A DNA stretch of 52,076 bases from positions 1 to 52,076 of the forward strand of contig JAHBWH010000039.1 of NCBI GenBank assembly GCA_019637115.1, in the 5' to 3' direction. The position numbers and the translations under genes are program-made. Positions 6,351 to 44,281 of this stretch are shown here, one piece after another (positions within the stretch are counted from its first letter, which is position 1; every line of letters begins with the position of its first letter). This DNA is from Myxococcales bacterium. Lineage in GTDB: Bacteria > Myxococcota_A > Polyangia > Polyangiales > Houyiibacteriaceae. The notes beneath the pieces are model-generated. The model was not told where the DNA came from, made no database searches, and saw only the letters and a program-made list of their open reading frames with translations.

Positions 6351-6536
6351 TCAGCTCGCCCCGAGCGCCGCCTTCAGCGTGGCAGCGTTCGTGCCTGCTC
6401 GGCCAGGTGCGATGGTCTCAGTGCCGTTCACGCTCGGCCTGAGCCTCTGGTAGTGGTCGCAGGGGGCCGCGCCGGCGACATAGGGACCGCCAATGGGAAA
6501 GCCTGCGTAGCGGTCGGCCGTTTGCGCCGTCATCAT
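6351..6536 (-). CDS. Possible small protein or gene remnant divergent from the DUF58 gene
   Basis: A 61-codon frame starts at ATG 6536 or 6533 on the minus strand, interlocked with the plus-strand ATG at 6535. The peptide (MTAQTADRYAGFPIGGPYVA onward) is Gly/Ala/Thr-rich and ends LKAALGAS. Third-position GC is high but lower than in the neighbours, about 80 percent by eye. It could be a real small protein, the 3' remnant of a larger gene, or chance. No homology recognised. Confidence 0.3.
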   Translation of the reverse strand: MMTAQTADRYAGFPIGGPYVAGAAPCDHYQRLRPSVNGTETIAPGRAGTNAATLKAALGAS

Positions 6537-7689
6537 GGACGCCTCGATGGACGGGTCCCCCCCCACCGACCCCCCGAAGGCGCGGGCGCCCGCGCCCTCG
6601 CCGAAGACGTCCGCGCCCGCGGGGGCGCCGAAGGGGTCGAAGCGCGCGAAGCAGAAGCGAAGACGGCGGCTGCCGGCGCGGACCTTCCAGTTCACCCGGC
6701 AGGGCAAGCTCTTCTTGCTCGTGACCTTCGGCGTCGGCCTCGCGGCCGTGAACACCGGCAACAACCTGCTCTACCTGGTGCTCGGCCTGATGCTCAGCCT
6801 CCTGCTGGTCAGCGGGACGCTCTCGGACGTCGCGCTCTGGCGCGTGAAGATCCGCCGGACGCTCCCCAAGCGGGCCTTCGTCGGGCAGCCGATGGTGGTG
6901 GAGCTCCTGCTCGAGAACGGCAAGGGGGTGCCGGCCTACGCGGTCGAGGTCGAGGACCTGGCCGCGGACGAGGTCCGCGCCGAACGGCGCTGCTTCTTCC
7001 TCAAGGTCGACCCCCGCGTGACCCGGCCCGCGACGTACCGCCGGACCCCGGCGCGGCGGGGCTGGCTGCGCTTCGAGCGCATCATGACGCGGACACGATA
7101 CCCCTTCGGGCTCATCGAGAAGGGGCGCCGGGTGACGGCGCCGGGGGAGCTCCTCGTCTACCCGCGGCTCGTGCCCGTCGACCTCCGCGCCGTGCTCGCG
7201 GGCGCAACGGGCCACGGCGCTCCCGACCGCAAGCGCGGGCGCGGCGAGGTCGATGGGCTGCGCGATCACCGCGACGGTGACGAGGCCCGCTCCATCCACT
7301 GGCTCCGCACGGCCGCGCTCGATCGCGTCGTCGTGCGCGAGCGCAGCGCGGAGGCCCGCGCCCGGCTCGCCGTCGTCCTCGACGACGCGCGCCCGCCCCT
7401 GAGCGACGCGGACGCCGCGCTCTGGGACGAGGGCTTCGAGGCCGCGGTCTCGGAGGCGGCCTCGATCGCGCACGCCGCGCACGGCGCGGGCGTCGCCGTC
7501 GAGGTGCACACGCGCAGCGGCGGGACCTCGCTCGTCCAGCCGGGCGAGCCGCTCACCCCCGTCCTCCGCTTCTTGGCGCTCGTCACCCCAGCCGCGACGA
7601 CCGCTCCGCTGCCGAGCCCGCGCGGCGCGCACGTCCACCGGGTCGCGGTCGCGCTCGCCGACGCGCCTCCTACGGAGGTGGCCGCTTGA
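6535..7689 (+). CDS. DUF58 domain-containing protein
   Basis: The protein has 384 residues. It has an Ala/Pro/Lys-rich N-terminus, a pair of membrane segments (about 60-100: LFLLVTFGVGLAAVN and LLYLVLGLMLSLLLV), then a beta-rich region and the DUF58 signature GEVDGLRDHRDGDEARSIHW, followed by an alpha/beta (vWA-like) segment. DUF58 proteins are usually encoded in MoxR-DUF58-(vWA)-TgpA clusters and are thought to assemble or regulate membrane complexes. Here the TgpA-type transglutaminase follows directly, but no MoxR AAA+ gene lies upstream in the window. The stop codon overlaps a TTG start (TTGA), and this junction is duplicated 110 bases further on. Confidence 0.88.
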   Translation: MDASMDGSPPTDPPKARAPAPSPKTSAPAGAPKGSKRAKQKRRRRLPARTFQFTRQGKLFLLVTFGVGLAAVNTGNNLLYLVLGLMLSLLLVSGTLSDVALWRVKIRRTLPKRAFVGQPMVVELLLENGKGVPAYAVEVEDLAADEVRAERRCFFLKVDPRVTRPATYRRTPARRGWLRFERIMTRTRYPFGLIEKGRRVTAPGELLVYPRLVPVDLRAVLAGATGHGAPDRKRGRGEVDGLRDHRDGDEARSIHWLRTAALDRVVVRERSAEARARLAVVLDDARPPLSDADAALWDEGFEAAVSEAASIAHAAHGAGVAVEVHTRSGGTSLVQPGEPLTPVLRFLALVTPAATTAPLPSPRGAHVHRVAVALADAPPTEVAA

Positions 7690-7830
7690 GCTTCGGCGCG
7701 CTGCACGTCCTGGTGAGCTTCGACGCCCGCGGTGGCGCGCGCGTCCACCGCGTCGCGGTCACGCTCGCCGACGCGCCTCCTACCGAGGTGGCCGCTTGAG
7801 CTTCGGCGCGCTGCATATCCTGGTCAGCTA
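7624..7830 (+). repeat. 110-bp tandem duplication across the DUF58/TgpA gene junction
   Basis: Bases 7624-7720 and 7734-7830 are about 90 percent identical at an offset of 110. Each copy contains the last 20 codons of the DUF58 gene, its TGA, the overlapping TTG and the first codons of the transglutaminase gene. Because 110 is not a multiple of three, the first copy is left as a 37-codon chimeric ORF (7686-7799). It starts like the transglutaminase and ends like DUF58. Confidence 0.9.
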
Positions 7831-9979
7831 CCTCCTCGCCAGCGTGGGCTTCGTCGCGCTCTCGCTCGGCGCCGAGCTCGGCCCGCTCAGCCTCGGCTTC
7901 TTCGCGCTGGGGACCCTCGGCAGCCTCGCCGTCCCGCGCGGGCTGCGCGCCAAGCCGGGCTACCAGCAGCTCTTCAGCGCGGTGCTCGTCGGCTACCTCG
8001 CCTTCGGCGGCCTGCGCCTCTTCTTCGGCGAGTCGCTCCTGACGCTCGGCATCGAGCTCGCGGGCACCCTGCAGGTCATCAAGCTCTTCCAGCGCCACCG
8101 CGCCAAGGACTTCCAGCAGATCCAGGTGCTCGCCTTCCTGCACCTCATCGCGGCGACGATCCTCAGCACGGGCCTCGAGTACGCGCTCGTCTTCTTCGCC
8201 TACGTCTTCCTCGTGCCGTGGATGTTCGCGCTCACGCACCTGCGCACGGAGATCGAGCAGCACTACGTCGCCGAGCGAGACGAGGGCGCCCCCGACGAGA
8301 GCGCCGTCGCGCGGGTGCTCGCGTCGCGCCGCATCGCAGGCTGGCGCTTCCTCTTCGCGACCGCCTCGCTCGCGATCCCGCTCTTCCTCGCGACGGCCGC
8401 GTTCTTCCTGCTCTTCCCGCGGGTCGGCATGGGCTTCCTCTCGTTCGGCGAGGGCGTCGGCCGGCAGGTCGCCGGCTTCTCGGGCGAGGTCGAGCTCGGC
8501 GGCTTCGGCGTCATCCGCACCGACCCCACCGTCGTCGTCCGCGTGCTCCCCGACGATCTCCCCGCGGACCCACCGCCGCGTCGCAACTTTCGCCTGCGCG
8601 GCACGAGCTTCGACCACTACGAGGGCGGGCGGTGGACGCGCACGAGCGACCGCGCGCGCCGCGTGCCGAGCGACTTCGGCGTCTTCTCGCTGCGCGGCTC
8701 GCCGCGCGGCCGCGAGCGACGGATCCAGATCGTGCTCGATCCGCTCGAGCCCCCGGTGCTCTTCCTGCCCACGGGCACCGTCGCGCTCGAGCTCTCTCCG
8801 CGCGTCGAGGGCGGCACCGACGTCCAACGCCAGATCACGCTCGGGGAAGGGCTCGACGTGCGCTACGGCGACGGGGACGGATTGCAGCAGCGCTACGTCG
8901 CGATCGTCGACTCGGCCGAGGCGGACGACGCGCCCGCGCGCCCGGCCGGGCCGGAGCCCGAGCGCGAGGAGCCGCTGACGGACGACGCGCGCGCCCGCTA
9001 CCTGCAGCTCGCCGCCGAGGTCTCGCCCCGCCTGCGCGAGCTCGCGGCGCAGATCTCGGGCGAAGGCCCCGACGTCGTGCGCGCGCGCCGCGTCGAGGCG
9101 TGGCTGCGCAGCGACGCCTTCACCTACAGCCTCGCGTTGCCCGACACGCGGGGACGCGATCCGCTCGAGGTCTTCCTCTTCGAGGCGCGCAGCGGCCACT
9201 GCGAGTATTTCTCGACGGCGCTCGCGATCATGCTGCGCAGCGTCGACATCCCGGCCCGCAACGTGACCGGCTTCGTGGGCGGCGCGTTCAACCCCTACGG
9301 CCGCTACTACGCGGTGCAGCAGGGCGACGCGCACAGCTGGGTCGAGGCGCACGTCGGCGGCCGTTGGCAGACCTTCGACCCGACGCCTCCGGCGCGTGGT
9401 CAGATGGCGCCGCCGAACGAGGGCCTCTGGGCGCAGCTGAACGCGGTCCTGGACGCGCTGCGGACCCGTTGGGACGAGGACGTGGTCGGCTACGATCTGC
9501 GCCGACAGGTCGACGCGCTCCGCGGTGTCTTCCGCTGGTTCCGCGGCTTCCGGCGCGATCGCGAGTCTCCGAGCGAGCGCCCGGACGAGCAAGGCGCGCG
9601 CGCCGAGCCGAGCCGCCTGCCGTGGGGGTGGCAGGGGGCGCTGTCGGTGGCGCTCGTGCTCGTGGGGCTCTGGCGGCTGCGGCGACGACCGAAGGGCCCG
9701 CGCCGCGCCGCCCGCGTCCCCGCGACGCGCCTCTACGAGCGCCTCGAGCGCGCGCTCGGGAAGCGCGGGCTCGCCCGTCCGCGTGGCCGCACCCCGGCAG
9801 AGCACGTCGAGGCCCTGCGCGCGATGGGCTACGCGGGCGCGGACGCCGTCGCCGAGATCACGGGCGCCTACCTGCGCGCGCGCTGGGGCGAAGCGACGCT
9901 CGAGCGCGAGGAGGCCAAGCGGCTCGGAGGGTTGATCCGGACGCTGCCGACGCACGAAGCGACCCGCGACGCCGCCTGA
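7796..9979 (+). CDS. TgpA-family membrane transglutaminase-like protein
   Basis: The TTG at 7796 starts MSFGALHILVSYLLASVG, which is the first membrane helix, so it is preferred over internal starts. The 727-residue protein has about five or six N-terminal membrane helices (1-215), then a long extracytoplasmic region. The transglutaminase core carries Cys469 (SGHCEYFS), His513 (GDAHSWVE) and Asp528 (TFDPTPP), the full papain-like triad. One more helix at about 610-630 and a C-terminal DUF4129-like cytoplasmic domain (ERLERALGKRGLARPRGRTP) complete the usual TgpA layout. Related proteins are linked to cell-envelope peptide modification; the substrate is unknown. It is coupled to the DUF58 gene upstream. 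Confidence 0.92.
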   Translation: MSFGALHILVSYLLASVGFVALSLGAELGPLSLGFFALGTLGSLAVPRGLRAKPGYQQLFSAVLVGYLAFGGLRLFFGESLLTLGIELAGTLQVIKLFQRHRAKDFQQIQVLAFLHLIAATILSTGLEYALVFFAYVFLVPWMFALTHLRTEIEQHYVAERDEGAPDESAVARVLASRRIAGWRFLFATASLAIPLFLATAAFFLLFPRVGMGFLSFGEGVGRQVAGFSGEVELGGFGVIRTDPTVVVRVLPDDLPADPPPRRNFRLRGTSFDHYEGGRWTRTSDRARRVPSDFGVFSLRGSPRGRERRIQIVLDPLEPPVLFLPTGTVALELSPRVEGGTDVQRQITLGEGLDVRYGDGDGLQQRYVAIVDSAEADDAPARPAGPEPEREEPLTDDARARYLQLAAEVSPRLRELAAQISGEGPDVVRARRVEAWLRSDAFTYSLALPDTRGRDPLEVFLFEARSGHCEYFSTALAIMLRSVDIPARNVTGFVGGAFNPYGRYYAVQQGDAHSWVEAHVGGRWQTFDPTPPARGQMAPPNEGLWAQLNAVLDALRTRWDEDVVGYDLRRQVDALRGVFRWFRGFRRDRESPSERPDEQGARAEPSRLPWGWQGALSVALVLVGLWRLRRRPKGPRRAARVPATRLYERLERALGKRGLARPRGRTPAEHVEALRAMGYAGADAVAEITGAYLRARWGEATLEREEAKRLGGLIRTLPTHEATRDAA

Positions 9980-13408: not shown

Positions 13409-13477
13409 CACCCGCCCTCGGCTCCGTGTCCGACTCCGCGACTTTGCGGGTACACGTGGACGTGCACGTAGGTGCCC

Positions 13478-13572
13478 GTCCACGTCCGCGTTCCACGCCC
13501 GTCCACGTCCACGTCCCCGTCCACGTCCACGTCCCCGTCCCCGTCCACGTCCACGTGCGCGTGCGCGTGCGA
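13478..13572. repeat. Hexanucleotide tandem array CGTCCA/CGTCCC
   Basis: About 13 six-base units, ending in CGTGCG repeats, lie in the 13409-13832 spacer. The rest of that spacer has no ORF with a start and ribosome site, and no terminator. Confidence 0.8.
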
Positions 13573-43426: not shown

Positions 43427-44035
43427 ATGGACGAGGTCGAGCTGCGCGCGGCGCACGTGCGCTGCAGCACCTGCGGGCTGCCCACCGAGAGCTGCTTCTG
43501 CGCGTCGCTGCCGGTGCTGGCGAATCGCACCCGCGTGATGATCGTCCTGCACCACAGCGAGCTGGCCAAGACGACGAACACTGGCGTGCTGGCGGCGCGA
43601 ATGCACGCGGAGGTGCGCGTCCGAGGCGTGTGGGGCGAGCCCCCGAGCGTCGTGCCCGACGAGCTCGCGACCACGAGGCGGTTGCTCGTCTTCCCGAGGC
43701 CAGGCGCCCGCGTGCTCACGCCGGACGACGCCGCGAAAGGCGGGCCGACGACGCTGATCGTGCCCGATGGGAGCTGGCCGCAAGCCCGCCGAGCCGCGCG
43801 GCGCGACCCGCTCGCGCGAGACGCCGAGCCCGTCACCCTGCCGCCGGGACCCCCGTCGCGGTATCGGCTGCGTCGCAGCCCCCGCGCCGACGGCCTCTGC
43901 ACGCTCGAGGCGATCGCGCGAGCCCTCGGGGTGCTCGAGGGTGAGGCGATCGAGGAGGCGCTCCTCGCGGCGCTGGAGACGTTCGTCGCGCGCCATCGGG
44001 AGATCGGGCGGCGGCCGATCGACCTCGAGGGGTGA
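43427..44035 (+). CDS. DTW-domain protein (tRNA-uridine aminocarboxypropyltransferase-like)
   Basis: DTW proteins such as E. coli TapT attach a 3-amino-3-carboxypropyl group from S-adenosylmethionine to uridine 47 of tRNAs. The 202-residue protein has the N-terminal Cys cluster (RCSTCGLPTESCFC), then VMIVLHHSELAKTTNTGVLA, and DGSWPQARRAARRDP, which is the D-x-T/S-W signature. RYRLRRSPRADGLCTLEAIA gives the final conserved S-x...TLEA motif. The length is normal. The 3' end is tandemly duplicated downstream. Confidence 0.88.
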   Translation: MDEVELRAAHVRCSTCGLPTESCFCASLPVLANRTRVMIVLHHSELAKTTNTGVLAARMHAEVRVRGVWGEPPSVVPDELATTRRLLVFPRPGARVLTPDDAAKGGPTTLIVPDGSWPQARRAARRDPLARDAEPVTLPPGPPSRYRLRRSPRADGLCTLEAIARALGVLEGEAIEEALLAALETFVARHREIGRRPIDLEG

Positions 44036-44281
44036 CGAGAGCGTTGGCGAGCGCGGACCCGAAGAGGCGCTCCTCGCGGCGCTCGAGACGTTCGTCCGCG
44101 CCATCGGGAGAACCGGGGGGCGGTCGACCCTGAGGGGTGATGAGAGCGTTGACGAGCGCGCGCCCGAGGAGGCGCTCCTCGCGGCGCGCTCGAGCGGTTC
44201 GTCGTCGCGTGCGATCGGGCGATCGGGGGGCGGCCGATCGACTCGAGGGGTGATGAGAGCGTTGACGAGCGCGCGTCCGAT
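43955..44281 (+). repeat. ~105-bp tandem triplication of the DTW gene 3' end
   Basis: Three copies begin GAGGCGCTCCTCGCGG at 43955, 44064 and 44169 (offsets 109 and 105). Each runs through GAGACGTTCGTC-like, ATCGGG and GAGGGGTGA, then GAGAGCGTTG(A/G)CGAGCGCG. The first copy is the last 27 codons of the DTW gene plus its downstream sequence; the other two are non-coding. The remaining 44282-44404 spacer shows nothing. Confidence 0.9.

Follow-up and report, generated by a model that had tools for sequence, protein, structure and literature searches.

The junction between a DUF58-family gene and the overlapping TgpA-type transglutaminase gene downstream of it is present twice in the genome of the uncultured Myxococcales bacterium analysed here, the two copies lying head to tail, with a chimeric micro-ORF bridging the genes. 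We consider it fairly likely that this reflects a near-neutral duplication which spared both genes, in which a ribosome relay through the micro-ORF arose as a by-product alongside some independent initiation of TgpA, and in which the encoded peptide probably has no function. The window (the whole stretch of DNA that was analysed) is an entire contig of 52,076 bp from a draft genome of 8.9 Mb in 434 contigs, and the features concerned are these:

6535..7689, + strand: DUF58-family gene (ORF; Pfam DUF58; relatives have orthologues immediately before TgpA)
7624..7719, + strand: copy A of the duplicated junction (repeat search, TRF)
7674..7680, + strand: Shine-Dalgarno GGAGGTG, preceding the start of the micro-ORF (predicted pairing with the 16S tail, -14.2 kcal/mol)
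7686..7799, + strand: chimeric micro-ORF of 37 codons (ORF with TgpA-like start and DUF58-like end)
7720..7733, + strand: 14-nt stretch between the recognisable copies (local alignment with 7611-7623)
7734..7829, + strand: copy B, 93% identical to copy A (repeat search, TRF)
7784..7790, + strand: weaker Shine-Dalgarno CGAGGTG, before the TgpA start (predicted -10.6 kcal/mol)
7796..9979, + strand: TgpA-type transglutaminase gene (ORF; TgpA_N, Transglut_core, DUF4129)

A repeat search of the window showed that positions 7734-7829 repeat 7624-7719 over 96 nt, 93% identical and at a spacing of 110; TRF reported an array at 7616-7829 with period 110, 2.0 copies and a score of 363. The copies align ungapped with 7 substitutions, and their likeness stops at 7719 and 7829, respectively. 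The unit takes in the 4-nt TTGA at which the two genes overlap: its left portion is the 3′ end of the DUF58 gene (from about 7611/7624), giving the final 21 codons and the stop, and it continues through the opening 11 TgpA-type codons. Self-match at this junction is far above chance, the best ungapped score being 75, against 14 or less in 96 of the 97 junctions of relatives. The preliminary description of this DNA had reported a 110-bp duplication of the junction. That there are two copies is borne out by the repeat search, TRF and the ORFs, and 110 holds as spacing and period, but the recognisable copied block is 96 nt long and the other 14 nt are only partly alike. These 14 nt (7720-7733) partly resemble 7611-7623 (CGAcGCCCGCG / CGA-GCCCGCG, in a local alignment whose score is reached by ~2% of random local pairs) and probably represent the left edge of copy B after divergence. 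The two stretches can be aligned, partly by eye, by placing either a pair of 1-nt gaps or a single gap the size of a codon; because both placements fit, neither the original unit (107-110 nt) nor its original frame can be fixed.

Both flanking genes read as complete. The DUF58 assignment rests on a Pfam match with E 7.6e-05 and 22.4 bits, slightly below the 23.4 cut-off; in the TgpA frame the first available ATG, GTG or TTG is at 7796, and 106 nt now separate the TgpA start from the DUF58 stop. Within this gap the micro-ORF (MSFGALHVLVSFDARGGARVHRVAVTLADAPPTEVAA; 37 aa, TTG start) begins like TgpA and ends like DUF58, just as had been claimed for it, and shares a TTGA with each of its neighbours. 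The stop/start overlap therefore does occur twice, at 7686-7689 and 7796-7799, and at both places it has the length (1 or 4 nt) that characterises gene pairs coupled by termination-reinitiation.

The junction was compared with that of relatives, as the preliminary description had proposed, using genomes from this genome's genus, family and order plus Gemmatimonadota, the nearest being Sandaracinus-like and other Myxococcota genomes. None of the 97 distinct DUF58-TgpA junctions from these genomes carried the duplication, and most showed one overlap between DUF58 stop and TgpA start, usually of 4 nt (ATGA, GTGA or TTGA); a few relatives instead overlapped by 1 nt, left a gap of at most about 32 nt, or had the start displaced. 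As judged from these sequences, the duplication is specific to this lineage among the genomes compared. A conserved micro-gene was ruled out, since the micro-ORF is absent from the 97 junctions and has no match in Pfam. The one relative's junction with a higher self-match (score 52) is that of the only same-genus genome, whose DUF58 tail holds a 6-bp GTCCAC microsatellite. This genome is 63% identical in TgpA, so that the event can neither be dated nor tested for selection.

Two side observations were made among these loci. The GTCCAC expansion of the same-genus genome (L010:1333-1474) lies just ahead of the TgpA start, and CGTCCA arrays also occur at 13477-13556 in the window and in L139, L147 and L150 of the genome studied here. 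In another relative (G003; L043:2380-2530) the conserved TgpA start position has no canonical start codon and the 4-nt overlap lies ~28 codons ahead of it, so that TgpA appears N-terminally extended; a repeated 11-mer was looked for around that overlap and none was found.

Among the Polyangiales-type genomes sampled, comparable duplications with a period of 50-300 are frequent. In this genome we found 36 such tandem arrays in 838 kb (4.3 per 100 kb) and 16 in a further 400 kb, the survey taking in L139-L178 and L239-L258, about 1.24 of its 8.9 Mb; elsewhere the rates per 100 kb were 1.9 (G001), 8.0 (G006) and 2.5 (G043, a single-contig, 10.3-Mb relative). This bears on whether the draft assembly simply joined two strain variants of one junction end to end. 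The assembly is indeed fragmented, as noted above, and the differences between the copies could be those of strain alleles; however, the join has no gap of N, and similar diverged tandem duplications are found in several genomes and elsewhere in the window. We regard such an artefact as very unlikely, because similar duplications are present in the single-contig genome too.

Placement of the arrays was judged with a simple gene finder, based on codons and written for this analysis. Most are intergenic, within long or repetitive genes, or at gene 3′ ends; only 7616-7829 contains one gene's stop together with the start of the next co-directional gene. Two others in this genome, L242:15425-15655 and L248:11323-11590, each touch the stops of two convergent genes. 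In the window, a DTW-domain gene (43427-44035) has its 3′ end tripled in diverged copies at 43951-44280 (period about 105); its TGA stop is overlapped by a GTG, giving short ORFs at 44032-44133 and 44137-44253 with no coupled gene downstream. The 4-nt overlap itself is ordinary in this genome, as 105 of 555 predicted co-directional neighbour pairs in our sample have it. A mobile or interspersed element was ruled out as the source of the unit, as no second full copy exists in the genome; a whole-genome match returned only the unit itself and short partial matches of 26-54 bp.

We propose that a lineage-specific local tandem duplication of ~107-110 bp copied the DUF58/tgpA overlap; the copies are head to tail, consist of flanking sequence and are absent in relatives, as such an event predicts. 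Copy A would then supply the complete DUF58 3′ end, and copy B the complete TgpA 5′ end. The length of a junction-spanning duplication varies only the frame that is entered at the first start codon, and the event may well have survived because a copy of this kind leaves both genes complete at any length. Here the spacing is 2 mod 3, so that reading from the TTG at 7686 reaches the second DUF58 stop in frame, and the resulting ORF of 37 codons bridges the gap, overlapping by 4 nt on either side. In simulations that duplicated 60-200 bp across a single junction, 31-35% of cases produced this relay geometry, in which an ORF links the first start to the second stop and overlaps by 4 nt. The chimeric ORF thus needs no selection to explain it, since about a third of junction-spanning duplications yield the relay frame. 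The arrangement is probably close to neutral, a probable accidental product of a lineage rich in small tandem duplications, and the micro-ORF peptide is probably without function of its own. The copies have lasted some time, given that 7 of 96 nt differ, and their persistence would also be compatible with selection for a relay.

How TgpA is translated from this arrangement can be predicted in part. In E. coli and Haloferax, gaps of about 20 nt leave hardly any reinitiation (PMC10666635), so at 106 nt direct DUF58-TgpA coupling is not expected to survive unless the micro-ORF mediates it. Ribosomes finishing DUF58, or binding GGAGGTG, would translate the micro-ORF and then reinitiate at TTG 7796, where some independent initiation would be added. 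A ribosome relay of this kind, which the preliminary description had also proposed, is plausible. Independent initiation is possible because the TgpA start keeps a fair Shine-Dalgarno site: GAGGTG in copy B, at -10.6 kcal/mol, is better than most relatives' sites (mean -8.1 kcal/mol at 23 loci) and than ~95% of random positions (mean -5.0). The only same-genus genome has GGAGG ahead of its TgpA start, as in copy A, which suggests from this single outgroup that the G-to-C at 7784 in copy B is the derived change. A regulatory hairpin at these sites (CCTCC-TAC-GGAGG) was considered and rejected, folding being no better than that of shuffles (z -0.56 to 1.03).

The strength of the copy B site could mean that the micro-ORF is not meaningfully translated and that TgpA starts alone from there. 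This seems to us quite unlikely: the site of the micro-ORF is stronger still (-14.2 kcal/mol), and the overlap between micro-ORF start and DUF58 stop is of the kind that favours reinitiation. Conversely, the relay might be under selection, the added termination-reinitiation step setting the DUF58:TgpA ratio. Retention of the 4-nt overlap in both Myxococcota and Gemmatimonadota suggests that coupling matters; none of the 7 substitutions has broken the relay frame or either TTGA overlap; and the stronger Shine-Dalgarno stands before the micro-ORF. Yet there is one instance, a third of random duplications would give the same geometry, and 4 of the 7 changes fall at third positions, about as chance would have it, 96 nt with 7 changes lacking the power to detect constraint. 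We therefore hold selection on the relay to be unlikely. A mixed mode of predicted relay plus independent initiation is the most likely.

The case illustrates how existing genes can give rise to a short coupled ORF in a single step: a duplication across the junction spares both proteins and, in a third of cases, the chain of overlaps stays unbroken. Provided that such relays are translated, some of the short ORFs observed within operons may not be genes but by-products of duplication. The bolder proposal, that duplicated overlapping junctions are a birth route of functional relay micro-ORFs in operons and that this one was selected for the DUF58:TgpA ratio, we think rather improbable.

Our literature search found no published tandem duplication of overlapping gene junctions. 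The closest precedent, unrelated to this unit, is that of the mycobacterial MIRU relay ORFs. MIRUs are short repeats whose ORF couples to the adjacent gene at -4 spacing, which probably lessens the insertion's effect on expression, and short ORFs delivering ribosomes are known more generally (reviewed in PMC12548453). As in MIRUs (e.g. senX3-regX3), the end of a small ORF (7686-7799) overlaps the downstream start (TTG 7796) by 4 nt; in contrast, MIRUs are interspersed at many genome sites, apparently mobile and of their own sequence, whereas the unit here consists of the flanking genes only and has nothing beyond partial matches elsewhere. With ribosome-delivering uORFs and synthetic bicistronic designs (PMC12548453) it shares a short cistron that holds the second Shine-Dalgarno and whose stop overlaps the next start, but it follows a full-length gene within an operon and was born by duplication. 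Both ends of the micro-ORF carry the standard TTGA of termination-reinitiation at 4-nt overlaps (NTGA), with the difference that here a single junction has been turned into two consecutive ones, separated by a chimeric ORF.
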